The notes under the pieces were generated by a model, which saw only the letters and a program-made list of their open reading frames with translations, had not been told where the DNA came from and ran no database searches. This document shows positions 24,884 through 36,011 of a DNA stretch of 64,000 bases, piece after piece. A program made the position numbers and the translations under genes. The stretch spans positions 1 through 64,000 of the forward strand of contig NZ_CABHOL010000025.1 of NCBI RefSeq assembly GCF_902168135.1. Reading direction: 5' to 3'. Numbering within the stretch: the first letter of the stretch is position 1; the number at the start of each line of letters is the position of its first letter. Source of the DNA: an uncultured Fluviicola sp. Lineage in GTDB: Bacteria; Bacteroidota; Bacteroidia; Flavobacteriales_D; Crocinitomicaceae.

Positions 24884-24923
24884 AAAACAGTAGGGGCGCG
24901 ATTAATCGCGCCCCTACTGTTTT
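24884..24923. repeat. Perfect 40-bp palindrome, arm type A (likely bidirectional terminator)
   Basis: The arms AAACAGTAGGGGCG are identical to those of the palindrome at 3100-3137, but the centre is CGATTAATCG instead of AATAATTATT. It is extended by one A-T pair at each end. It again sits between converging genes. Confidence 0.85.
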
Positions 24924-24934
24924 CACACATCCGG

Positions 24935-25282
24935 TTAGAAATGAATTTTTCTGCTGTAATTCTCATTCCGCATTTTCAGCAATCCTTCCAGGATTTCCAC
25001 AGCTAAGTCCGAAAGCGCTTGTTCATCGGATGTGACTTCTATGCCATTCACCCGCTGGGTCTGCTCAAAATACCAGTCTTCCAGCTTTTCGGTTATATCG
25101 GATTCCTTAAAACCCGCTAGTATAAAGATGCCACGATAAAGATCTAGCTGTAAAGTGGTGTGAAGCCCGCCCAGGCTTAAATGGTACAAATGCTTCTGTA
25201 CTTTCAGATCATCGACAATAAGCCCAAGGGTGAGTTTAAACAAATCCTCGAAGGCAATATTCAGTAAATTAGTGTTATTCAT
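24935..25282 (-). CDS. Hypothetical protein at the end of the RiPP operon
   Basis: Not recognised. 115 residues from the ATG at 25282 (MNNTNLLNIAFEDLFKL); an upstream start at 25309 would add nine residues. It is acidic with two amphipathic helical stretches, no signal peptide and no membrane segment. It contains FEDLFKLTLGLIVDDLKVQ and the bulky C-terminal part LAVEILEGLLKMRNENY. It lies 47 bases (20 from the alternative start) after the tolC-like gene on the same strand and before a terminator palindrome, so it is probably the last gene of the operon. It could be an immunity or accessory protein, but nothing in the sequence shows this. Confidence 0.55.
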   Translation of the reverse strand: MNNTNLLNIAFEDLFKLTLGLIVDDLKVQKHLYHLSLGGLHTTLQLDLYRGIFILAGFKESDITEKLEDWYFEQTQRVNGIEVTSDEQALSDLAVEILEGLLKMRNENYSRKIHF

Positions 25283-25329
25283 TTTTAAATGGTTTATTGT
25301 TTTATGCATTAACAGGAGCGAAATCCACT

Positions 25330-26619
25330 TTAGCGGAAGTCCGGCTCAAATAGTTCCAGTAATAAAAGGTCAAACTGCAGTGTTTCGTATGTTATTAATT
25401 TTTGCTGCCACTCCATAAAAACCGCTTCTATTTCAGGGTAAGTTAAGCGGCCCTCTTTGTAAAGCAGCAGACTCTTTTCATAGATTATTTCCAGGTTATC
25501 GTTTATTTGTTTGCACTGTTCCAGCTTTACTTTCAGATTCAATCGTTTTTGTTTCAATTCCAGCGTTTGTTTTTCCAATTGCAAATCGATCAGCTCTTTC
25601 CGGCTCTCCAATTCTTCCCGCTTAACGGCATTGATCCGTTTGGTTTTGAGCCATTCCCCGCGGTTGAACAAGGGCACATTCAGATAAATCCCAATTCCTT
25701 CATATAAATTCTCGTTGATTTGCCTGGAATAAGATTTTGTTGGATTTCCGGCAAGGAGATAATCTTTATTGTTGGTTGAAAATCCCGTTCCCAAAAGTCC
25801 GTTCAATGAAACAACCGGAAGAATTTTCGCCCGCTCGGTCTTCCATTCATTTCGCAATGATTCGGATTCCAACTCTATCAATTCTAATTGAAACACCTCG
25901 TCCAAGCGAATGTTTTCCCTCACCACTGCAATGGATGACAAATCAACTCTGTAAAGCGATTTCAGTGGCTGTCCCATTTGAAAGTTAAGATCCATCCATT
26001 TCAATTTGGATTCGTTATCCAGGTTTCTCCATAAATCTTCTTCCTCCAACAGGATATTATGGCTCCTAAGCGTATCAATCACATGAATCCTGCCTTCCTT
26101 TATCAGCAATCTTTGAACGGTTTGGATCTGACGGTACTTCTCCCCGCGTGATTCCGCCAACCGGACCTGAACTGAAAGTTTACATAAATCCAGGTAGGTT
26201 TCGACCGCCCGGACCTTTAATTCGTTTCTTTTCCTCTCCAAACCAGCCTGATCCCTTTCAATCGCTGTCCGGAATAACTGTTGTTTGTGGAAATAAGAAA
26301 AGCCATTAAACAACTGAAGGCTCGAATTCAATCCAAAAGACTGGGAATTAACAGAATTCGTTGCAAACGTATTCGTAAAAGCATCCAATCTTCTTCCAAA
26401 AGAAGTGTTCAATCCCGCATTTGCAGAGATATTGGGAAGCAATGTCCACCAATGGAATTGTTTATTAATCCCGGAAACATTGAGTACTCCTGACTCAGCG
26501 GCTGTTTGGAGTGAGTTATTCCCTACTTTATCCAGGCAAGACTGCAACGTGAGTATTTCCTGACCTAAAGCAGGCGGCGAAAAACATCCAAACAAAATAA
26601 AAAATACCGGATAATTCAT
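25330..26619 (-). CDS. TolC-family outer-membrane efflux protein
   Basis: A protein of 429 residues with a signal peptide (MNYPVFFILFGCFSPPALGQ). The two-fold repeat of TolC is visible: LQSCLDKVGNNSLQ at the start, long charged helices (ERKRNELKVRAVETYLDLCK; REELESRKELIDLQLEKQTL), and GIYLNVPLFNRGEWLK marking a beta-hairpin. It provides the outer-membrane channel for the exporter encoded just upstream. The ATG overlaps the stop of the HlyD gene as ATGA, so translation is coupled. Confidence 0.9.
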   Translation of the reverse strand: MNYPVFFILFGCFSPPALGQEILTLQSCLDKVGNNSLQTAAESGVLNVSGINKQFHWWTLLPNISANAGLNTSFGRRLDAFTNTFATNSVNSQSFGLNSSLQLFNGFSYFHKQQLFRTAIERDQAGLERKRNELKVRAVETYLDLCKLSVQVRLAESRGEKYRQIQTVQRLLIKEGRIHVIDTLRSHNILLEEEDLWRNLDNESKLKWMDLNFQMGQPLKSLYRVDLSSIAVVRENIRLDEVFQLELIELESESLRNEWKTERAKILPVVSLNGLLGTGFSTNNKDYLLAGNPTKSYSRQINENLYEGIGIYLNVPLFNRGEWLKTKRINAVKREELESRKELIDLQLEKQTLELKQKRLNLKVKLEQCKQINDNLEIIYEKSLLLYKEGRLTYPEIEAVFMEWQQKLITYETLQFDLLLLELFEPDFR

Positions 26620-27905
26620 TTGATCAGTGCTGTAAATTGTTCAAAAAACCGCATCAACAAACGCTTATCTTTCGTAATAACGATTGCTTTCCCTTTCAGC
26701 TGTGCCCTGGGTGGAATCTGCAGGTTGTAAGTTGTTTTCAGCTGATTCGGAAGTTCAATACGCAGTTCATATTTTCCATTCTTGTCCATTTGAGTAATCG
26801 CGCTCACTCTTCCCTCCAGCATTCCGAATTCCGTTTTCGGATAATCCGTCAATTCAATAAATGTCCTTTGTCCTTTTTTAATTTTCCCAGATCCGGAACT
26901 TATTACAGAAGCCACGGCCTGATAACCATTCCCATCAGGAACAATAATAAGGGAAGCTTCCTCGGCTTTGTAGTATCTGTTGACCTGAAGCATCTTGTTA
27001 AAAATTACTTTGCCTGAACATGGAGCTGTCCAGGCAGCATCTTTCTTCCAGTTTAGGAGCTCATTGGTCAATCCCGTAAGCATCTGCCGAATTTCAGCTG
27101 ATCGTTGAAGTCGCTCCGAACGGGTATCGTGTTCGAGCTTCAGGATCTCTTTACGCAAACTGTTCAATGTAATCAAATTCTGAATGGCTTGTTCTTTTTG
27201 TCCTTCAACTGCCTGCATGGACTGATTCCTGGAATGTTTTTCCTGGGTGAGGGATTGCCTGGAAATGGCATTTTGCGCAGCCAAACGTTCCCCGCCGGCC
27301 AATTGTTCTTCCATCAAAGCATATTCGCTCTCCGAAAGTTTCATTTTCTTACCTGAAATAACCTGCAGCTGTTCCCGAAAAGCAATTTCCCTGCGGATCA
27401 GTTTGAGTTCTTCCTGTTCCGGGCTTAAAGCGTATTCCAGGTTCCATTCCCGGATCTTTGAAAGCAGGTTTGTCCATCGCTCCCCAAAACTCCCAAGTTG
27501 CAGCTGCTGATCGAAAACGGGAATTTCCGATGGAAACTCATCAGCCAACTTTTCCAGTTCCTGCAAATAAGCCAGTGCTTTTTCAAAGTCATGCGAATTG
27601 ACCCTAAAGTCAAACTGGGCAAGCAGATCCCCGGCTCTTACCTCTTGGTTTTCAACGACATTTAAAGCCTTCAGCTGGACATAACTCTGGTTCGAGAGTT
27701 CGATTGGCGCCTTAGAAGTGGTTACAATTACTTCACCGGGAATCTCATCCGGATAACGGACAAGCCAGGCCAAACTTACCAAAAGAGACAAGGCCAGCAA
27801 CAACACACCGCCTCCCGAATTGACGATCCATTTCGGCGGAGTTGTGAGCAGTTCATTCATTTCCTCACTTCTTAACCCGGTGAATTCCTCGTGTTCCTTT
27901 TTCAT
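26616..27905 (-). CDS. HlyD-family membrane fusion protein
   Basis: A protein of 429 residues from the ATG at 27905. A longer frame reaching back into the ABC transporter gene gives an N-terminus unlike the family. Seen: a cytoplasmic start (MKKEHEEFTGLRSEEMNELL), one transmembrane helix (VLLLALSLLVSLAWLV, about residues 31-47), a lipoyl-like half motif (NQEVRAGDLLAQFD), a long coiled-coil hairpin, the second half (GKVIFNKMLQVNRYY) and a beta-barrel end. It bridges the ABC exporter to TolC. It starts 10 bases after the transporter stop. Confidence 0.9.
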   Translation of the reverse strand: MKKEHEEFTGLRSEEMNELLTTPPKWIVNSGGGVLLLALSLLVSLAWLVRYPDEIPGEVIVTTSKAPIELSNQSYVQLKALNVVENQEVRAGDLLAQFDFRVNSHDFEKALAYLQELEKLADEFPSEIPVFDQQLQLGSFGERWTNLLSKIREWNLEYALSPEQEELKLIRREIAFREQLQVISGKKMKLSESEYALMEEQLAGGERLAAQNAISRQSLTQEKHSRNQSMQAVEGQKEQAIQNLITLNSLRKEILKLEHDTRSERLQRSAEIRQMLTGLTNELLNWKKDAAWTAPCSGKVIFNKMLQVNRYYKAEEASLIIVPDGNGYQAVASVISSGSGKIKKGQRTFIELTDYPKTEFGMLEGRVSAITQMDKNGKYELRIELPNQLKTTYNLQIPPRAQLKGKAIVITKDKRLLMRFFEQFTALIK

Positions 27906-27915
27906 TGGTTCCAAT

Positions 27916-30117
27916 TTATCCGACCGCTTTTTCCAGTTCCAATTGACTCCGCACCAGGGAATAATAAGATCCCCTGAGGGCCAACAGCTCATGATGTGTT
28001 CCTTTTTCAACCAGCGAACCGTTGTCCAATACCACAATTTGATCTGCATGCTTTACGGTACTCAGTCTATGTGCAATGACAACTGCTGTTCGACCGCCAA
28101 AAAATGCATTCAGGTTATCCATAATGATCCGTTCATTTTTCGAATCCAGGGAACTGGTTGCTTCGTCAAAGAATAAAAATCCGGGATTCTTGTAAACGGC
28201 TCTGGCAATCAATATGCGTTGTTTTTGTCCGCCACTGATCCCCATTCCTTCATTCCCTATTTTCGTATTGTAGTTTAACGGAAGCCCTTCAATAAATTCA
28301 CGGATATTTGCTGTTTCAGCGGCATTTCTCAATTTCTGCCGGTCAATAATTTCCTCCCCGAGCGCAATATTATTAGCTATCGTATCATTAAAAATGTATC
28401 CGTCCTGCATAACCGAACCACAATGAGCCCGCCAAACCTGCTGCGTAAAGTTTTCCAGATCCATAGAATCAATCCTTATTTTTCCGCTCGTAGGCTCGTA
28501 AAACCGCAGAAGCAGTTTCATCAAAGTTGTTTTACCACTGCCACTTGCCCCCACGATTGCAGTCAAGCTACCGGATCGGATAGTGAGGTCAATGTTTTCC
28601 AGCACATCTTTTTCGGCTCCTTTGTATCGAAAACTGATTCCTTCCAGGACGAGGTCTTTCTCCCTGGGAAGTTCATTGAACCTATGCGAATCCTCCGGCT
28701 CTTCGTCTTCCTTGTTGTGAATCTCATTCAGGCGTTCCAGGGAAATTTTAGCATCCTGTACCGAATAAATGAATCCCAAAAACTGGGAAATCGGGGCATT
28801 TAACTGACCTATGATATACGAAACCGATAACATCATGCCCAGGGTCAGCTGTCCGTCTATTACTAACTTGGCGGTATAAAAACTGACAAGGATATTCTTC
28901 AGTTCGTTGATGAATGTTGCACCGTTACTTTGGAACTGCTCCAATCGCAGGGTTTTGATGCTTAGTTTGAACAACTTCACCTGTATCCGCTCCCAATCCC
29001 AGCGCTTTTGCCTTTCTGCATTGTGGAGTTTGATTTCCTGTATCCCGTGGATCAACTCAACTATTTTCGACTTGTCTTCTCCACCCCGTGAAAAACGCTC
29101 CTGGTCCAGGTCCTTTCTCTTCCTTAGAAAAAGCTGAACCCACCCGAAATACACCATGCTTCCTGCCAGGAAAATGAAGAAAACAGGCAGACTGTAAACC
29201 ATCAACACAATACTGAATATCAAGAAATTGAAAAACGAAAACAATACGCTCAGTGTCTGATTCGTAAGCAGGGTTTCTATCCTCGAATGATCGTCAATCC
29301 GCAGCATCAAGTCGCCCATTTTCTTAATATCAAAAAATGAAATGGGCAGTTTCATTAGTTTGACCAGGAAATCCGACACGAGCGAAATATTGATCCGTGC
29401 GCTCAAATGCAGCAAGATCCAGCTCCTGACAATATCGACGCTCATCCTGCCCAGGAAAACAAATAACTGTCCGAAAAGGATTAAGTACAGGAAGTGATAA
29501 TCCTTATTTTGTATCCCGATGTCCACCACACTTTGCGTTAAAAAGGGAACGATCAACTGCAGGATACTTGATGCCAGCAATCCGAAACTCAACTGAACCA
29601 GGAATCTGCGATACTTTTTCAGGTATTGGAATAAAAACCGGAATCCGTTTCCTCCCGTTATTTCTCCCGCTTCCTTTTCCATGAACGAAGGCGTAGTTTC
29701 GAGCAGCAGGCAGATTCCTTCTTCGGTATTTTCATCGGCATGAGTGCCAATCCAATTGGTTAAGAATTCCTTTTTGGAATAGATTCGCTTTCCTTTTGCC
29801 GGATCGACCACATAAAACCGGCTTCCCCTGATCTTGTACAAAACAACGTAATGACGCTCGTTCCAAAAACAAATACAAGGCAAGGGAGCATCTTGTTTGA
29901 GACTCTGTAAGTTAATTTTCACAGCCAGTGTGCGCAACCCGATTCTTTCAGCCGCATTGCTGAGTGTCTGCAGACTGCTCCCCAAACGGGTTGTTTCCGA
30001 AAGGTCCCGCAGTTTCTCCAGGCTGATGGAACGACCATAATACTTTGCAATCATGCGAATGCAAGTCGGGCCGCAATCCATAGAATCTGGCTGTTTGTAT
30101 ACCGGGAAAGGCTTCAC
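27916..30117 (-). CDS. Peptidase-containing ABC exporter (C39, double-glycine leader)
   Basis: A protein of 733 residues. Residues 1-130 are a C39 cysteine protease: oxyanion Gln9, catalytic Cys15 in DSMDCGPTC, His in NERHYVVLYKI and Asp in VVDPAKG are all present, so it should be active. A six-helix ABC transmembrane domain spans about 155-440. The nucleotide-binding domain has Walker A GASGSGKTT (near 525), signature GISGGQKQR, Walker B FLFFDEATSSLDS and H-loop VIAHRLST. Such proteins cut the leader after Gly-Gly and export the peptide; the precursor at 34065-34271 has such a site. It lies 5 bases after the OmpA-like gene. Confidence 0.95.
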   Translation of the reverse strand: MKPFPVYKQPDSMDCGPTCIRMIAKYYGRSISLEKLRDLSETTRLGSSLQTLSNAAERIGLRTLAVKINLQSLKQDAPLPCICFWNERHYVVLYKIRGSRFYVVDPAKGKRIYSKKEFLTNWIGTHADENTEEGICLLLETTPSFMEKEAGEITGGNGFRFLFQYLKKYRRFLVQLSFGLLASSILQLIVPFLTQSVVDIGIQNKDYHFLYLILFGQLFVFLGRMSVDIVRSWILLHLSARINISLVSDFLVKLMKLPISFFDIKKMGDLMLRIDDHSRIETLLTNQTLSVLFSFFNFLIFSIVLMVYSLPVFFIFLAGSMVYFGWVQLFLRKRKDLDQERFSRGGEDKSKIVELIHGIQEIKLHNAERQKRWDWERIQVKLFKLSIKTLRLEQFQSNGATFINELKNILVSFYTAKLVIDGQLTLGMMLSVSYIIGQLNAPISQFLGFIYSVQDAKISLERLNEIHNKEDEEPEDSHRFNELPREKDLVLEGISFRYKGAEKDVLENIDLTIRSGSLTAIVGASGSGKTTLMKLLLRFYEPTSGKIRIDSMDLENFTQQVWRAHCGSVMQDGYIFNDTIANNIALGEEIIDRQKLRNAAETANIREFIEGLPLNYNTKIGNEGMGISGGQKQRILIARAVYKNPGFLFFDEATSSLDSKNERIIMDNLNAFFGGRTAVVIAHRLSTVKHADQIVVLDNGSLVEKGTHHELLALRGSYYSLVRSQLELEKAVG

Positions 30118-30122
30118 GATTT

Positions 30123-30860
30123 CTAAGGTTTAAGAAAGACAACTTCTACACGCATGTTCCTGTTTTCGTCTTTATCTGTTTTTTCGGGTACTAACGGAAC
30201 TGTATTGGAATAGCCATAACAAGTGATTCGTTTTCCATTTATACCGTGGTTCATGAGATATGCCTTTACCTTCTCTGCTCGGTTAAGAGATAATATCAAA
30301 TCGGGTTGACAGCAAACATGTCCGTTTAATTTGACCTGGACAGTGGTATCATTTTGCAAAATCATCTCAAGCATTTTTAAATTCTCTATAGAATTCTTTA
30401 TGATAGTGGTCGTTCCCGAATTGAAATTGATCTTAAGGTTCACGGGAGTATTGTACTTAATAGCCGGCTTTACGCTGTACACAAACACATCGACCCTGCG
30501 GAAAGTTTCTTCGTTATTCCTTCCCTTTTTGCGCTCTTCATTCTTGTTCAGCGTATCAATCACAAATGCTTTTATGTTCGATGACCCAATAAGCTTTAAG
30601 ACCGAAGTCATTCTTTTTGAAGCGAGGTTTTTATTGTATGCTGCAGTTCCCACCGTATCCGTATAAGCAATGACTTTTATTTTTCCGTAAGCCAGCTTTA
30701 ATTGATTGATCCTGCTTAAAAATGCTGCCGGATTTTTAACGGTCGAACTGCCCACATCAAATGAGATGGAAAGGGAATCAGCCAATTTCACTTCAGCAAA
30801 ATCCTGTGCCTTTAATCCGCAATAGGCAAACAGCCCAATTATCAATAGATATAATTTCAT
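30123..30860 (-). CDS. Secreted protein with two OmpA-like domains
   Basis: A protein of 245 residues with a signal peptide (MKLYLLIIGLFAYCGLKAQ). The ATG at 30860 forms an ATGA overlap with the SPASM gene stop, which favours it over the ATG at 30866. Two OmpA/MotB-like folds are seen. The first (about 25-125) has IKVIAYTDTVGTAAYNKNLASKRM; the second (about 135-245) has VQVKLNGHVCCQPD...LSLNRAEKVKAYL and ends with the NMRVEVVFL signature. OmpA domains bind peptidoglycan. An OmpA-type protein inside a peptide-export operon is unusual; it may tether the export channel to the cell wall. Confidence 0.83.
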   Translation of the reverse strand: MKLYLLIIGLFAYCGLKAQDFAEVKLADSLSISFDVGSSTVKNPAAFLSRINQLKLAYGKIKVIAYTDTVGTAAYNKNLASKRMTSVLKLIGSSNIKAFVIDTLNKNEERKKGRNNEETFRRVDVFVYSVKPAIKYNTPVNLKINFNSGTTTIIKNSIENLKMLEMILQNDTTVQVKLNGHVCCQPDLILSLNRAEKVKAYLMNHGINGKRITCYGYSNTVPLVPEKTDKDENRNMRVEVVFLKP

Positions 30861-31939
30861 CCCCATATTCTTGTATTTATCTCATTCACTTTTTCTTCCG
30901 GAATGATCATGTTTCCGTTTTCAATGCGTATTCCGCAATCTTCTTCCGACAGGTAATTTTCGTCGCCTTTCCACAGACTGATGAATGGATTGTAACCGCA
31001 TTTGGAAGGCTTGCCATTCTCCCTATTGTCCATGGTAAAAGCCCTGCAGTCGCTGCAGATAGTCCGGAACTCGCAGACAGAACAAATACTGATTTTGTCT
31101 TTTGTCCATTTCCATTTCTTTTGAAATTCGTTCTCCAAAACTACTTCAGCACAGGAAGTATCGTCAACATGACCGAATGCACTATTTATAGATGGACAAT
31201 TTCCTATCCATCCATTCCGGTCAACACTTATCTTGTGGGCCAAACAGCTGTTATAATTCATGTTCCGAACATAGGCTTGCGTATTTTGTCGAAACTGAGC
31301 CATTGAAATATTTCCGCAATGGTCGTGTGAAACCGCTTCCTGCCGGGTAAATACCAATTTGTAAAAATTCACATCCAATTCGAAACCTTCCGAGGCATTG
31401 TAAATCAGGATCGTACTCAAGCGAAAAAAACGCTCTTTCAAAGCTGAATCCAAAAAGGCTTTCAGATCTTTGTGAAAAGGAACCAATATTTGGATCGACT
31501 CGATAGTTGTTTCATTGCTATAAACCTGCAAAATCCGAAGATTCTTCACTACCGAATAAAAATCCAAAAACCGCACTTCCAGGAATTGTGCTCCCAGTTC
31601 ATCCAACTGATTCAGAACAGAAGGAATGCTCCAGGATGAATTCTCATCCAGTTCAAGGATGGCGTTATTGATGGCTGATCCCGGGTAATAATCCGTCGGG
31701 AGCGGTGTTAAACATGCTCCGATCTCTTCGTCAATCAGCAAACCCAATTCGTTTTCAAGAATAAACGTTTCATATTCTTTCACTAACGTCCTGTCCAGTT
31801 CCAGGCAATCCACCAGATCATTCGGGACCAAATGCGATTTTGCCTTTTGCAGGTCAACCAGCAAAGAACGATTGTATCCCTTCACCGGAATTACATTCGG
31901 ATATAATTTCAGTACCTGCCTGCTTTCAACCGTATTCAT
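30857..31939 (-). CDS. SPASM-domain peptide maturase (grasp-with-spasm type)
   Basis: A protein of 360 residues from the ATG at 31939, chosen because it overlaps the preceding stop as ATGA. The C-terminal third carries the SPASM cysteines: CLAHKISVDRNGWIGNC (C-x10-G-x4-C), then CSVCEFRTICSDC and a final CGYN, the layout that binds auxiliary [4Fe-4S] clusters in peptide-modifying radical-SAM enzymes. The N-terminal part has no CxxxCxxC, so the radical-SAM cluster site is absent. The partner ATP-grasp enzyme and the double-glycine precursor identify a grasp-with-spasm system. The chemistry of this protein is not known to me; it may be a scaffold or redox partner. Confidence 0.82.
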   Translation of the reverse strand: MNTVESRQVLKLYPNVIPVKGYNRSLLVDLQKAKSHLVPNDLVDCLELDRTLVKEYETFILENELGLLIDEEIGACLTPLPTDYYPGSAINNAILELDENSSWSIPSVLNQLDELGAQFLEVRFLDFYSVVKNLRILQVYSNETTIESIQILVPFHKDLKAFLDSALKERFFRLSTILIYNASEGFELDVNFYKLVFTRQEAVSHDHCGNISMAQFRQNTQAYVRNMNYNSCLAHKISVDRNGWIGNCPSINSAFGHVDDTSCAEVVLENEFQKKWKWTKDKISICSVCEFRTICSDCRAFTMDNRENGKPSKCGYNPFISLWKGDENYLSEEDCGIRIENGNMIIPEEKVNEINTRIWG

Positions 31940-32127
31940 AGCTTTTGGGAATAATCGATCATTAATGAAATGGGCAGCATTGGTTCGTACAAACATTCCA
32001 GCCTATCCATCTTTAATTTTTGGATGGTAATCCGTGCTCGTTCTTCCCTTTGCTTTCTTTTTTGATCCAAGTCCGCACCGGGAAATTTTTTAGCTAAAAT
32101 CGCATCTGCTGTTTCAATTCCTTCCAT
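31936..32127 (-). CDS. Small charged protein between the two maturase genes
   Basis: Not recognised. 63 residues, starting MEGIETADAILAKKFPG; a TTG three codons upstream is an alternative start that would overlap the ATP-grasp stop. The middle is strongly charged and helical (DLDQKRKQREERARITIQK) and the C-terminus is hydrophobic with several methionines (LYEPMLPISLMIDYSQKL). The ATG is 5 bases past the ATP-grasp stop, and its TGA overlaps the SPASM start as ATGA. That coupling is the main evidence that it is real. Possible roles are leader binding or joining the two maturases; both are inference. Confidence 0.65.
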   Translation of the reverse strand: MEGIETADAILAKKFPGADLDQKRKQREERARITIQKLKMDRLECLYEPMLPISLMIDYSQKL

Positions 32128-32132
32128 AGCGT

Positions 32133-33107
32133 TCAATTCATTAAAAATTTGGCCACCTCGTAATCCACATTCGAGTTTGTTGTCTGGGAAACCGCTCCGT
32201 ACTGACCGTTCGGATTGACTTCCAGGAACACGTATTTTTTATCTTTCGTAACCACGATGTCCAGCGATCCGAAATTCAGATCCAATTTTCTCATCAGTTC
32301 ACCAACCTGTTTTTCAATTGCTTCCGGCAGGGTGTAGTTGCACATCCGCATCCCGGAATCATATCCCAACCGATAATCCAATGCCGCAACCTCCCGGCTT
32401 TGAGAGAAAATGGCTTGCGAATAAACCTTGCCGTCCAGGTAAATCGTACGGATCTCAAACAGCTTGTCGAGTTTTTCCTGGAACATACTCAGATCAAAAA
32501 AATCCGGCAGTAACTCCAATTCTACTTCACCCACCGGAACAGTGTACCCCATCCGGTAACTGTCTGCTTCTCCCGATTTGGTATAATGGACACATTCAAA
32601 AGGGAATGCGAGTGATTTCGTAATAATTGCTTCTTTGTTGTTCTTCCAAAAATCCAGCAGGTGTTGTTTGGACCTTGTGATCAGGGTCTTTGGAACCTCG
32701 ATATTCAGCGAAGTACATATTTCCAGGAATTCAATTTTATTGTAGTTTCCATGCCCGAATTTCCCCAAACACCTTTTTGCGTGAAAACACCGGCGGATTT
32801 GTTCGGTCCTTGTTTTTAGGTGTTCATCCGAATAAACTTTTAATCCTTCCTGGGAAAATTCACCGGTTCCGAAACGATAAACCTGGATATCTGTTCTGCG
32901 GTACCAAACCGATTTCACATCACCGGAATTGCATACAAACCGATCATTTTTATAAATCCGGTAATCAAATTGATTCCGATCAATCAGGTATTCCAATTCA
33001 ATCGCATCATCTTCCAGGAATACTTCAAACGGTTCCCGGTGATTGTTCAAATAAGCAAGAACACTCCGTGAATTCAAATCAGCCCGTTCCGTAAAAACCA
33101 GTATCAT
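32133..33107 (-). CDS. ATP-grasp peptide maturase (grasp-with-spasm type)
   Basis: A protein of 324 residues from the ATG at 33107, which overlaps the preceding stop as ATGA. Relatives (MvdC/MvdD, PsnB) form ester or amide links between acidic and Thr/Ser/Lys side chains of a precursor. Seen: N-terminal MILVFTERADLNSRSVLAYL, SVWYRRTDIQVYRF (usual in this family), an ATP-binding lysine in EAIITKSLAFPFE, and the metal-binding end FLEVNPNGQYGAVSQ, close to the family NPNGQ motif. It is predicted to act on the peptide encoded at 34065-34271. Confidence 0.9.
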   Translation of the reverse strand: MILVFTERADLNSRSVLAYLNNHREPFEVFLEDDAIELEYLIDRNQFDYRIYKNDRFVCNSGDVKSVWYRRTDIQVYRFGTGEFSQEGLKVYSDEHLKTRTEQIRRCFHAKRCLGKFGHGNYNKIEFLEICTSLNIEVPKTLITRSKQHLLDFWKNNKEAIITKSLAFPFECVHYTKSGEADSYRMGYTVPVGEVELELLPDFFDLSMFQEKLDKLFEIRTIYLDGKVYSQAIFSQSREVAALDYRLGYDSGMRMCNYTLPEAIEKQVGELMRKLDLNFGSLDIVVTKDKKYVFLEVNPNGQYGAVSQTTNSNVDYEVAKFLMN

Positions 33108-34003
33108 TCGAACATCAATAATTGAGTGGGTATCGGGCAATTCTTGATCAAACCGATCTTTAAGCGTTCCGTGGTGATCTCCTGTTTTTGTTTTTCCGAA
33201 AGATTAAGGTTCTCAGGAACAGCCAGCATTCCATAAGATTGGGGTAAATCCGTCACGGAATAATGCCTGTCGAGCCAGATTGCATAATGACTTGGCGGCA
33301 TGCGGCCGGCAATCACTTCTTTAAGCAAAACATCTTTCATTTCATCAAAGAATGCCTGGTTGTAGGAAGAATGAACGAGCAATACAAATACCTGTGAAGA
33401 ATTGCCCGGAAGTATCCATTCACCGGGATAACCCAGTTTGTAAATAATATTTTTAAATGCGATTAAATTGATGGAGTCGGTTAGCGCCATTTCCCGGTTA
33501 ACAGCAATGGTATCAATTGGCGTATCCGAATAGAACTTCATTCTCGGTACCTGGTCGGCTTCCAGCATAGTCTGTAAAACAAGCATCAGGGAATCAGTGT
33601 TGCTTCGTTTCAGTTTGGCAAAATTGTCAAAACCCTGCTGTACCAATTTTTGTTGTTTAGCTGTATAGTCTTTATTAATTTCACCAAGGTCGATCTGCTT
33701 TACCTGACCAAAGCAAGCCATATCAAAACCATAATTGGACCAGGCACTTCTCAAACATTTGGCACTTTTAGTTTCCTTCCCTTGTTTTTTGTAGCAATGA
33801 GCCATGAGGATATATTCCTCGGAATAGAGCTTTCCATATTGTTTTTTCACTTTCGACAACTGGTTCAAACTTTTTGAATAATTTGAATCATCAATGGCTA
33901 AGCGGTAAGCTACATCGCAATCCTTTTTGTATTGGATGTGGTTGAATTGTCCGTAAGAACAGATGCTGACAAGCATGCCAAGCAGGAAGAGTGCCTTTTT
34001 CAT
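33104..34003 (-). CDS. Secreted TPR-like protein in the RiPP operon
   Basis: Not recognised by name. 299 residues with a clear signal peptide (MKKALFLLGMLVSICSYGQ). Residues 25-110 look helical and repeat-like (AYRLAIDDSNYSKSLNQLSK, EEYILMAHCYKKQGKETKSA), as in tetratricopeptide repeats. The C-terminal part (RMPPSHYAIWLDRHYSV) resembles short segments of Bacteroidota hypothetical proteins found beside grasp-with-spasm genes; this is a weak impression. The stop overlaps the ATP-grasp start as ATGA. Being periplasmic while the maturases are cytosolic, it is more likely to serve export, sensing or self-protection than modification. Confidence 0.75.
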   Translation of the reverse strand: MKKALFLLGMLVSICSYGQFNHIQYKKDCDVAYRLAIDDSNYSKSLNQLSKVKKQYGKLYSEEYILMAHCYKKQGKETKSAKCLRSAWSNYGFDMACFGQVKQIDLGEINKDYTAKQQKLVQQGFDNFAKLKRSNTDSLMLVLQTMLEADQVPRMKFYSDTPIDTIAVNREMALTDSINLIAFKNIIYKLGYPGEWILPGNSSQVFVLLVHSSYNQAFFDEMKDVLLKEVIAGRMPPSHYAIWLDRHYSVTDLPQSYGMLAVPENLNLSEKQKQEITTERLKIGLIKNCPIPTQLLMFE

Positions 34004-34023
34004 TTTGCTGGTTTATTTTTGGA

Positions 34024-34052
34024 ATCCCCCGCTTCATTGCAAAGCAGGGGAT
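34024..34052 (-). other. Stem-loop between precursor and maturase genes
   Basis: On the minus strand, ATCCCC(T)GCTT pairs with AAGCGGGG(G)AT around a 7-base loop, in the 61-base gap after the precursor stop. No U-tract follows, so it is more likely an RNA-stabilising or partially attenuating hairpin than a full terminator. Confidence 0.5.
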
Positions 34053-34064
34053 AATGGTGACTTT

Positions 34065-34271
34065 TTATCGTTTGATGTAATCCAAACCTTGGGTTCCTGA
34101 CGGATAGTTTGGCGGATTGTAAGTCATCGCGGCAGTATCTCCGTCTTGTCCTCCAAATCCATCATGACGAGTTTCGCGTGCCGGTCCGTAGGTAGTTTCA
34201 CCTCCTGATATTCCCATCAGGTTCTTTGAATCAAACTTCTTTGATTGTAAAGATTCAAGTGTTTTATTCAT
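34065..34271 (-). CDS. RiPP precursor peptide with double-glycine leader
   Basis: A peptide of 68 residues. The leader (1-24) ends LMGISGG, a classic double-glycine site for C39 exporters, preceded by LESLQSKKFDSKNL, similar to leaders of Bacteroidota GG-type natural product precursors. The core would be residues 25-68, starting ETTYGPARETRHDG and ending GTQGLDYIKR. It has six acidic residues (E, E, D, D, D, D) and seven Thr/Ser, the side chains that ATP-grasp maturases join; one Lys near the end could form an amide. There is no Cys, so lanthionine or disulfide chemistry is excluded. First gene of the operon. Confidence 0.88.
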   Translation of the reverse strand: MNKTLESLQSKKFDSKNLMGISGGETTYGPARETRHDGFGGQDGDTAAMTYNPPNYPSGTQGLDYIKR

Positions 34272-34286
34272 AATTGAATGTGTTAT

Positions 34287-34318
34287 TTTGTTTTGCCTAC
34301 TCTATTTCTTTAACTTTA
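34287..34318 (+). promoter_or_regulatory. Candidate promoter for the small RNA
   Basis: TTTG (34287-34290), 20 bases, TAACTTTA (34311-34318; the last base differs from the TAnnTTTG consensus). The predicted start is near 34322. The box lies only 16 bases upstream of the precursor start codon, on the opposite strand. Confidence 0.45.
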
Positions 34319-34321
34319 CCC

Positions 34322-34420
34322 TAGCATTTTCGGCTGCACTGCTAAGGCAGAGTGTTTGCATTGTCAGGAGCCGGTAAACTGCCGAAATGCAGGGAGGTGT
34401 TACCGCACCTCCATTTTTTT
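34322..34420 (+). ncRNA. Candidate structured small RNA, about 99 bases
   Basis: The stretch opens with GCATTTTCGGC (34324-34334), which pairs with GCCGAAATGC (34381-34390) apart from one bulged T, closing a domain. Inside is a CTGC-TAAG-GCAG hairpin framed by TGCA and TGCA, and a second arm around GTCAGGAGCCGG. It ends with a terminator hairpin plus seven Ts, and a promoter-like pair of boxes lies upstream. No reading frame of useful length is present. It does not match any RNA family I can recall. Alternatively the element works on the minus strand as the 5' leader of the RiPP operon; the U-tract argues for the plus strand. Confidence 0.5.
34393..34420 (+). terminator. Intrinsic terminator of the candidate small RNA
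   Basis: GGAGGTG pairs perfectly with CACCTCC around a 6-base loop and is followed by A and seven Ts. The nearest plus-strand gene starts 214 bases later, and the gene before it is on the minus strand, so the terminator implies a separate plus-strand transcript here. Confidence 0.75.
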
Positions 34421-34634: not shown

Positions 34635-34898
34635 ATGGTTTTTACGAAACCTCCACTCTTGTATGTGCAAAATGTGGTTGACAAAAACTTCCTGAATGCC
34701 CTTGGAAACAGGGTGCGCGAGCTGAGACTGGCCAGGAATATGACCCAGGAGGACCTGGGATTTCTTGTTGGAAACTCCGGCAAACAAATCGGACGTATCG
34801 AAAGGGGAGAAAATAATGTCTCTACCTGCATGATCTATCAGATTTCCAAGGCTTTGGAGATTCCGTTGAATGAACTTTTCCATTTTCCGATCGAATAA
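34635..34898 (+). CDS. XRE-family transcriptional regulator
   Basis: A protein of 87 residues. The helix-turn-helix spans about residues 22-80: LGNRVRELRLARNMTQEDLG, then GNSGKQIGRIERGENN and a third helix MIYQISKALEIPLNELF, the usual XRE/Cro layout of a single DNA-binding domain without a sensor. It is divergent from the RiPP operon, whose first gene begins 364 bases away, so local control of that operon or autoregulation is plausible but unproven. A CCCATATATGGG palindrome lies 6 bases before its start. Confidence 0.85.
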   Translation: MVFTKPPLLYVQNVVDKNFLNALGNRVRELRLARNMTQEDLGFLVGNSGKQIGRIERGENNVSTCMIYQISKALEIPLNELFHFPIE

Positions 34899-35183
34899 AA
34901 AGGAATGGCATGGGAATCGCGATCCCCACACCATTCGGTCACTTCCACCCGACCAATAATCCGCATGTTCTTTTTCAAGGCTCATGTTTTAATTATTTTA
35001 AAATCAAACAGTTATATCGAAATTACCGGGTGCCCGGATTCTTTTTGAACTTACATTTTTCTCTTTTGAGAATCATTTTTCGTCCTTCAGTTCACAAGCA
35101 CGAAACAAATCTATAAAATATTTCTCATTATTGTATACTTTTTGGTAATTAATTTACTCAAAATAGTAAACAATTTTGTCACT
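34899..35183. other. Spacer with two inverted repeats
   Basis: No gene. GAATGG...CCATTC encloses GGGAATCGCGATCCC just after the XRE gene (about 34903-34937), a stem that may end its transcript. CCGGGTGCCCGG near 35029-35040 is a compact inverted repeat ahead of the tandem regulators. Confidence 0.35.
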
Positions 35184-35522
35184 ATGCAGCATCGTGGCGA
35201 AATAGTGGAAAGAGCAATTCGGAAAAGTGGGTATCCCATCAGCCAGATTGCGCGAAAATTGGGAAAAAGCAGGAGGTGGATGTACCTCATGTTCGATAAT
35301 TCCCAGGTGGATATCGAATCAATTATTTCGATCGGCAAGATCATACACCATGATTTCTCTGATGAAATCAAGGAACTCAGCGTCGTAAATCCAGATTCCT
35401 TTTCCGAACAAGAATCCAAGTACAATAAACAGAACAAAGATTACTGGAAGAATAAGTACCTGAAAGTATTAGAAAGCTACAACGCATTACTTAAGAAAAC
35501 CAATCCGGATAAAACGGACTGA
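35184..35522 (+). CDS. Helix-turn-helix regulator, tandem copy 1
   Basis: A protein of 112 residues from the ATG at 35184. A TTG 14 codons upstream is open but would place the promoter-like TTTTGTCACT inside the gene. Residues 1-66 form a DNA-binding domain: EIVERAIRKSGYPISQIARK, then KSRRWMYLMFDNSQVD as recognition region. The tail (KYNKQNKDYWKNKYLKVLES) is a likely coiled coil for dimerisation. About 80% identical to copy 2 over the first 66 residues, and the upstream 14 bases are also conserved. The target is unknown. Confidence 0.75.
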   Translation: MQHRGEIVERAIRKSGYPISQIARKLGKSRRWMYLMFDNSQVDIESIISIGKIIHHDFSDEIKELSVVNPDSFSEQESKYNKQNKDYWKNKYLKVLESYNALLKKTNPDKTD

Positions 35523-35681
35523 AAAGGGCGAAAATAAAGCCAAAAATTCATTCTCACTTATAGCTCACATCTGCGTAATTACACTATTTTTACCCGAAAT
35601 TCCCGCATATGACTACAAATTCCCGTAAACGAGTATTTTGTGTTTAACATTATACTCGGTCAAGTGAAGATTTTTGTCACT

Positions 35682-36011
35682 ATGCAACACCGTGGTGAAA
35701 TAGTAGAAAGAGCAATCCGGCAAAGTGGGTATCCCATCAGTTCAATTGCCAAAAAATTGGGTAGAAGCCGCAGATGGATGTACCTGATGTTTGATAATAC
35801 GCAAGTGGACCTGGAAACAGTTATGTCCATCGGAAATATTATTCACCACGATTTCTCGGATGAGATCAAGGAATTGAGTTCCATGAACAATCATTCTTTC
35901 GAAGATCCTGAAAATCCTTACTCCAACCAATCCAAAGAATACTGGAAAAACAAGTATTTGAAGCTCCTGGAGGACTATAACGAATTATTGAAACGTACAA
36001 ACGAGAAATAA
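35682..36011 (+). CDS. Helix-turn-helix regulator, tandem copy 2
   Basis: A protein of 109 residues from the ATG at 35682, paralogous to the gene 159 bases upstream. Domain order is the same: MQHRGEIVERAIRQSGYPIS and GRSRRWMYLMFDNTQVD in the DNA-binding part, IIHHDFSDEIKELS joining, then a coiled-coil tail ending NELLKRTNEK. The N-terminal half and the TTTTGTCACTATGCA context at the start are nearly the same in both copies, while the middle linker (SSMNNHSFEDPENPYSN versus SVVNPDSFSEQESKYN) has diverged. This is the pattern expected after a duplication that kept promoter and DNA-binding domain. Confidence 0.75.
   Translation: MQHRGEIVERAIRQSGYPISSIAKKLGRSRRWMYLMFDNTQVDLETVMSIGNIIHHDFSDEIKELSSMNNHSFEDPENPYSNQSKEYWKNKYLKLLEDYNELLKRTNEK

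Follow-up and report, generated by a model that had tools for sequence, protein, structure and literature searches.

The window analysed here, a 64,000-nucleotide stretch of contig NZ_CABHOL010000025.1 from an uncultured Fluviicola sp., carries at positions 25330-34271 a compact operon for a putative secreted graspetide, headed by a structured leader RNA (Table 1). Nine open reading frames (ORFs), all on the minus strand and all open, follow one another in the order precursor, secreted 299-aa protein, ATP-grasp ligase, a protein of 63-66 aa, SPASM-domain protein, OmpA-like protein, C39-ABC transporter, HlyD and TolC, as the initial annotation had described, and the four ATGA overlaps that it had counted were all located (33104-33107, 31936-31939, 30857-30860 and 26616-26619). 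Its recognition of a grasp-with-spasm operon, with cleavage at a Gly-Gly (GG) site by a C39 peptidase and a three-part exporter, is likewise backed by family matches. The unit proposed there keeps all nine genes and needs extending, as a tenth gene directly 3' of tolC (24935-25309, orf124) is best counted as part of the operon; its reading frame is as intact as the other nine. Comparison with relatives also corrected some starts, the likely ones being 33107 for the ATP-grasp gene, 32127 for the small protein, 31939 for the SPASM protein and 27905 for HlyD.

Table 1. Features of the operon, its leader RNA and its downstream end in the window.
Feature	Position	Strand	Remarks
Long-form structured leader RNA, about 122 nt	34294..34415	-	R1 covariance model, covariation, sequence
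Leader P1	34412-34406/34399-34393	-	
Leader pseudoknot 1	loop 34405-34400 with 34377-34372	-	
Leader P3	34352-34340/34326-34314	-	
Leader pseudoknot 2	loop GCC 34334-34332 with tail GGC 34297-34295	-	
Leader tail AGAGTAGGC	34303-34295	-	23 nt upstream of ATG
Precursor peptide, 68 aa	34065..34271	-	GG at residues 23-24, 44-residue core
299-aa helical protein, probably secreted	33104..34003	-	"cluster 23" position, DUF6624-like
ATP-grasp graspetide synthetase (GwsG)	32133..33107	-	TIGR04192 199 bits; PDB relatives 5ig9, 7m4s, 5ig8, 7mgv
63-aa protein, LPL position	31936..32127	-	alternative TTG start 32136
SPASM-domain protein (GwsS) without CxxxCxxC	30857..31939	-	TIGR04193 238 bits
OmpA-family protein	30123..30860	-	PF00691 8e-19; in 7/8 near operons
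C39 peptidase-ABC exporter	27916..30117	-	Peptidase_C39 1.5e-35, ABC_tran 2.1e-30, ABC_membrane 4.1e-29
HlyD-type adaptor	26616..27905	-	HlyD_3 1.3e-6; TIGR01843 1.9e-22, under cut-off
TolC-type outer-membrane channel	25330..26619	-	OEP 7.2e-15
orf124 (tenth gene), 124 aa	24935..25309	-	homologue directly after tolC in L033, L035, L036, L038
Near-perfect 40-nt palindrome, terminator-like	24884..24923	.	between convergent genes; read by eye from sequence

Eight near operons were compared, namely the window, L002 (the same 9038-base contig as L032), L033, L034, L035, L036, L037 and L038. The seven related loci keep the gene order, and genes for the precursor, the 299-aa-type protein, the ATP-grasp ligase, the SPASM protein, ABC, HlyD and TolC occur in all eight; the small protein is recognised by sequence in four and by position in eight. 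L002 stops inside tolC, before the position of orf124, the orf124 homologue is absent after tolC in L034 and L037, and the L037 locus has a split gene for ABC and a short ORF for the ATP-grasp ligase. Since the order recurs in seven loci and the precursor lies one synonymous and no nonsynonymous difference away from that of its nearest relative, L002, the operon is not a product of chance. Against L033, the precursor has a dN/dS of 0.19 and the six genes after it have 0.10, 0.08, 0.08, 0.07, 0.16 and 0.05, values that are rough because dS spans 0.47 to 2.1; these seven genes are usable, dS being saturated for hlyD, tolC and orf124. On this sequence comparison the operon is intact and under purifying selection. 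With the SPASM protein as query, 30 of the 200 family genomes and 8 of the 14 genus genomes gave a match, counting the own genome, which has a single copy; across the order TIGR04193 was matched in 32 of 399 genomes at E<=0.001, 19 of them over the cut-off.

Both marks of a graspetide biosynthetic gene cluster are present, an ATP-grasp ligase of the synthetase family and a leader/core precursor with Thr and Asp. GwsG is homologous to solved graspetide synthetases (phmmer: 5ig9, 4e-22; 7m4s, 2.3e-20; 5ig8, 1.3e-18; 7mgv, 3.4e-12), on which ground the ester links foreseen in the initial annotation stand as a prediction; the Lys amide proposed alongside them is weakened, as K67, the sole core Lys, is not conserved among related precursors. 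Precursor homologues were found in seven further operons, and the eight aligned sequences, two of them identical, share the core residues Y28, G29, T34, G40, D45, A47, T50, Y51, N52, G62 and D64, which include as hydroxyl and acid residues T34, T50, D45, D64 and two Tyr. Two Thr-Asp esters, with a predicted total change of -36 Da, are the simplest prediction because the cross-links of graspetides connect side chains of Ser, Thr or Lys with those of Asp or Glu, as given in the available text of PMC9576775, and the Thr and Asp residues are invariant; the ring pairing T34-D45 and T50-D64 is a guess. The core is free of Cys, and the C39 domain together with the GG site leads to a predicted cleavage after residue 24. 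The precursor itself has no NCBIfam match and a sub-threshold one in Pfam (PF14406, E 0.016, 15.9 bits against 25).

The SPASM-domain protein GwsS scores 238.4 bits against TIGR04193, above the cut-off of 175. CxxxCxxC is the defining motif of radical SAM enzymes, and it occurs nowhere in the 44 GwsS family members longer than 300 aa, a set that includes the window and one contig twice and so represents 43 distinct loci or copies. Nor did any radical-SAM Pfam family match the 42 aligned members at E<=0.1; all 42 match TIGR04193, nine match Pfam SPASM and three also match TIGR04150, which NCBI names pseudo-rSAM protein. The motif and Pfam tests lead us to reject GwsS as a radical-SAM catalyst and weaken the earlier claim of two maturases; because the motif is absent, GwsS is probably a non-radical partner and not a second cross-linking enzyme. 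Cys 286, 289, 295 and 314 are present in all 42 members. The structure model (mean pLDDT 92.8) has a sole PDB fold match at E<=0.001, the radical SAM/SPASM thioether enzyme 5why (Foldseek E 2.2e-5, prob 1.00), which we take to be CteB. Five short matches between the SPASM profile and PDB sequences (best 7uek, 1.4e-4) were taken as unrelated, and stop codons inside the SPASM genes of L004 and L005 proved an artefact of an over-long 379-aa query start, vanishing with the 360-aa query. For another graspetide group, the available text of PMC13097080 reports synthesis that depends on a partner.

The small protein lies directly upstream of the SPASM gene, which is the LPL position. By hhalign, its match to 30 distant LPL-position proteins has a probability of 0.5 for the window type and 4.3 for the second type, and a comparison of the two near types gives 83.6. 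An ORF of 45-90 aa follows the ATP-grasp gene in 37 of 39 cases, a raw count in which at least one (L048) is a piece of the ATP-grasp gene. The model of the 299-aa protein (mean pLDDT 72) has no PDB fold match at E<=0.001; two of eight homologues match DUF6624 (best 1.3e-4) and the window protein itself matches no family. We infer that "cluster 23" equals DUF6624.

The leader block stands upstream of the precursor in all eight near operons, with nhmmer E-values from 1e-53 to 9e-15 for a profile made from four of them, and folding the single sequence also yields P1 and P3 (z -2.5). RNAalifold on a MAFFT alignment missed the main stem and was superseded by the covariance model R1, built from seven near-operon leaders and carrying the stem of the window. 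Across 41 sources R1 gave 20 matches, 18 at E<=1.2e-5 and two weak, and a short GG peptide lies downstream of 17 of the 18 strong ones, the L045 copy being the exception by the test applied. In the alignment of all 20 copies pairing holds in 91.2% of cells, and both sides have changed in 18 of the 29 pairs, neither value being reached in 500 shuffles; the compensatory changes are spread over four helices, of which two are pseudoknots. The two pseudoknots, which were outside the model fitting, are 95.8% paired; their covariation score is reached by 0/500 shuffles, their further pair types by 2/500 and their pairs changed on both sides by 10/500; with the partners slid, 19-45% of cells are paired. 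These shuffle counts are not probabilities, because the leader sequences are related. A loose loop/tail pattern, chosen after the sites had been seen, returned 199 rows in the same sources. The triplet is fully complementary in 34 of the 43 rows with a short GG/GA ORF within 60 nt, and the remaining nine comprise eight second reads of tails already counted and one row (L063) complementary at two of three positions; full complementarity occurs in 7 of the 124 rows without an ORF. Loop and tail triplets co-vary as GCC/GGC, GTC/GAC, TCC/GGA, ACC/GGT, ACT/AGT and GCT/AGC.

The leader core resembles the Rfam family RF02914 (DUF805b), with which it shares a loop NNN-GAAAA, a tail AGAGTA-N'N'N' with complementary triplets and a similar distance from the ATG, whereas an additional 5' hairpin, whose loop makes the second pseudoknot, and a longer main stem set it apart. 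The window leader reaches 15.4 bits against a gathering score of 35.6, a score that no site in the whole window attains; it is reached by three of seven short-form sources and by none of seven others, long-form ones included. The loop-tail pseudoknot of DUF805b is absent from the cmscan structure line, and in 30 copies found through Rfam 95.6% of triplet cells are paired against a shuffle mean of 84.6%, with 0/5000 as high. The short form is generic, E<=0.001 being reached in 149 of the 200 family genomes and the cut-off passed in 99, and 30 high-ranking copies that were fetched are followed by a variety of genes, by eye 11 rhodopsin-like ones and one GG peptide; a leader specific for this operon or for ribosomally synthesised and post-translationally modified peptides is thereby ruled out for the short form. 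The rhodopsin-like genes stand just after the leader in L117, L120-L123, L134, L136, L137, L139, L141 and L143. The own genome holds five weak DUF805b copies, none over the cut-off and none of them the copy in the operon, with ORFs of 134-425 aa downstream.

The long form is rarer, with 30 matches in 17 of 200 family genomes, and lies just before a short GG peptide in 23 of these copies, before other ORFs in three and before no ORF that could be found in four; seven of the 30 are the sequences used to build R1. A SPASM match is also present in 14 of the 17 genomes (not in G010, G069 and G116), and the order yielded the long form in 15 of 399 genomes, none outside the family. Two short matches, L165 (only the 5' hairpin/pseudoknot part visible) and L167, come from G010 and G080, and no downstream ORF was found for either. 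A leader universal to such precursors was also ruled out: among 19 additional candidate precursors, the 60 nt before the gene hold AGAGTAGG with one mismatch in six cases and with no fewer than two mismatches in 13. Literature searches found no paper on this element for DUF805 with RNA motif, only apparently unrelated papers for DUF805 alone, and for AGAGUAGG none on this leader by title among the matches listed; flavobacterial leaders are discussed in PMC9723704, whose available text does not name DUF805.

The same genes, at 67-96% identity, flank the operon in the window, L033, L034 and L038. In the precursor, 299-aa, ATP-grasp and SPASM genes L038 is 29-43% identical to the window and L033 79-87%, while in HlyD, TolC and orf124 L038 (62-71%) equals L033 (60-71%). 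The L038 leader appears chimeric, its 5' end being 97% identical to the window and 60-76% to L035-L037, and its 3' end 80-85% to L035-L037 and 55-70% to the window, L033 and L034, with the changeover around the conserved core and L034 intermediate at the 3' end. The other type of modification genes behind such a leader in one relative suggests cassette exchange at a fixed site, for which the leader is stronger evidence than the exporters. Exchange between copies could have taken place within one genome, since G096 and G104 each hold both operon types at separate places. Empty sites were sought in stretches of six other genomes and G104, with G088, G046, G124 and G129 left out. The site is common to G010 (L199) and G104 (L205), and the other five stretches hold nothing of it but the downstream-flank gene in their 19.9 kb; in L199 (7046-18635) the same flanks enclose homologues of the OmpA-like protein and orf124 and none of the other genes tested. 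From this pattern we infer an old chromosomal site whose contents have been exchanged or lost. The rest of the site in L199 7046-18635 is filled by secreted-looking proteins, and in L205 (1387-7862) about 7 kb of large secreted-looking proteins lie between orf124 and the conserved flank. Two downstream flank genes are inverted in place in L034 (12895-16722) and L038 (15389-19217) relative to the window, L199 and L205.

The best explanation of these observations, and a fairly probable one, is a secreted-graspetide operon that combines a leader RNA, esters made by GwsG, a GwsS partner and export by C39-ABC, HlyD and TolC. Its mRNA would begin with the pseudoknotted leader, whose structure the covariation supports and which may control expression of the precursor. 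GwsG would bind the leader peptide and close two side-chain esters in the 44-residue core, likeliest in the pairing given above, the residues concerned being invariant in eight precursors. GwsS, with its Fe-S-type cysteines kept, and the 63-aa protein would act as a substrate-positioning or partner subunit and not as a radical enzyme. To judge from its families, the C39-ABC protein would cut after Gly24 and, with HlyD and TolC, export the core across both membranes, while the 299-aa and OmpA-like proteins may act in the periplasm; the precursor-modification genes could be exchangeable for another type at a fixed site, as the one chimeric locus suggests. Several observations weigh against this explanation. 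GwsG scores 199.1 bits against TIGR04192, its best-scoring family, below the cut-off of 230, as do five of six singly scanned relatives (L033, L034, L035, L038 and L043 under, L056 over at 325.8). The eight precursors are seven distinct ones, four of them close, and invariance is no proof of linkage because two Tyr, four Gly, one Ala and one Asn are as invariant as the Thr and Asp residues. Cys 232, 248 and 298 of GwsS occur in just 26 of 42 members, and the 5why match is loose (TM 0.39). The exporters do not sort by operon type, those of L036, of the other type and at another site, being 58-77% identical to the window in ABC, HlyD and TolC, for which reason these genes lend little to the idea of exchange and are weakened as evidence for it.

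That GwsS is instead a catalyst in its own right, a second maturase of an unconventional Fe-S type that adds a modification beyond the esters, appears unlikely, though it draws on the invariance in 42/42 of G243, C286, C289, E290, R292, C295, C314, Y316 and P318, more than a mere scaffold might need, and on the presence of GwsS beside GwsG in nearly all loci compared; the motif missing from 44/44 members, the lack of any radical-SAM Pfam family and the TIGR04150 matches of three members speak against it. A reading of the conserved upstream block as a promoter or regulator site in DNA would fit the near-constant short distance of AGAGTAGG from the ATG, but the compensatory changes in four helices, including the pseudoknots that the model had not been fitted to, make it very improbable. 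Very unlikely, finally, is a relic or silent cluster, which could appeal to the reduced site in L199 and the broken genes of L037 and is opposed by ten open ORFs and low dN/dS in the window. Within the explanation of a secreted-graspetide operon, it is intriguing to hypothesize that the long-form leader is a distinct structured RNA that mainly gates the synthesis of graspetide precursors, its core serving as the crossover for cassette swaps, and that GwsS is a radical-free Fe-S partner through which ATP-grasp ligases of a single kind can act on varied precursors, a joint proposal that is quite unlikely to hold as a whole.

Beside the precursor lie divergent plus-strand genes (34635-34898, 35142-35522 and 35640-36011), by eye resembling helix-turn-helix regulators and possible regulators here; the latter two are paralogues found at the same site in L033, L034, L038 and L199, and 34635-34898 has a counterpart in L033 only. 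A sigma-70 promoter scan was uninformative (19 matches against 22.7 expected), and the hairpin scanner, with loops from three upward, did not list the palindrome downstream of orf124.

No described grasp-with-spasm product was found in the literature, an absence that is weak given thin search coverage of subscription journals; the initial annotation's remark that no product is described agrees with this, but the arrangement as such is in print, the kind of operon being already catalogued as grasp-with-spasm graspetide (TIGR04192/04193; branch 5 in the available text of PMC8939145). As far as its available text goes, PMC9576775 (2022) gives 11 graspetide groups out of 24 as having characterised members, without naming group 14 among these. 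The window offers a Cys-free graspetide cluster, compact and intact, from a large group for which no made product was found, together with a testable two-ester prediction. The GwsS family, printed as a radical SAM enzyme in the available text of PMC8939145, has no CxxxCxxC in any of the 44 members examined, and the Rfam leader DUF805b becomes tied to peptide natural-product genes and gains a covariation-supported loop-tail pseudoknot.

The operon belongs to a kind already known but varies from it in some features; its leader RNA was unexpected, and its SPASM protein is probably non-radical. The branch 5 loci, as described in the available text of PMC8939145, likewise combine ATP-grasp and SPASM genes, a small protein just upstream of the SPASM protein, a "cluster 23" protein and GG precursors in Bacteroidetes, and C39-ABC and HlyD rank there with the families most strongly associated with ATP-grasp loci. 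The window differs from them in an ATP-grasp ligase under the TIGR04192 cut-off, a Cys-free core, the OmpA-like protein and orf124, and the long leader RNA. The PDB synthetases 5ig9 (presumably MdnC), 5ig8 (presumably MdnB), 7m4s (AMdnB) and 7mgv (CdnC) share with it an ATP-grasp ligase homologous to GwsG; the core pattern of these systems differs from that of the window, and we know of no SPASM partner in them. Radical SAM/SPASM maturases of the 5why type resemble GwsS in overall fold and C-terminal SPASM-type cysteines, and differ from it in possessing the SAM-binding CxxxCxxC.

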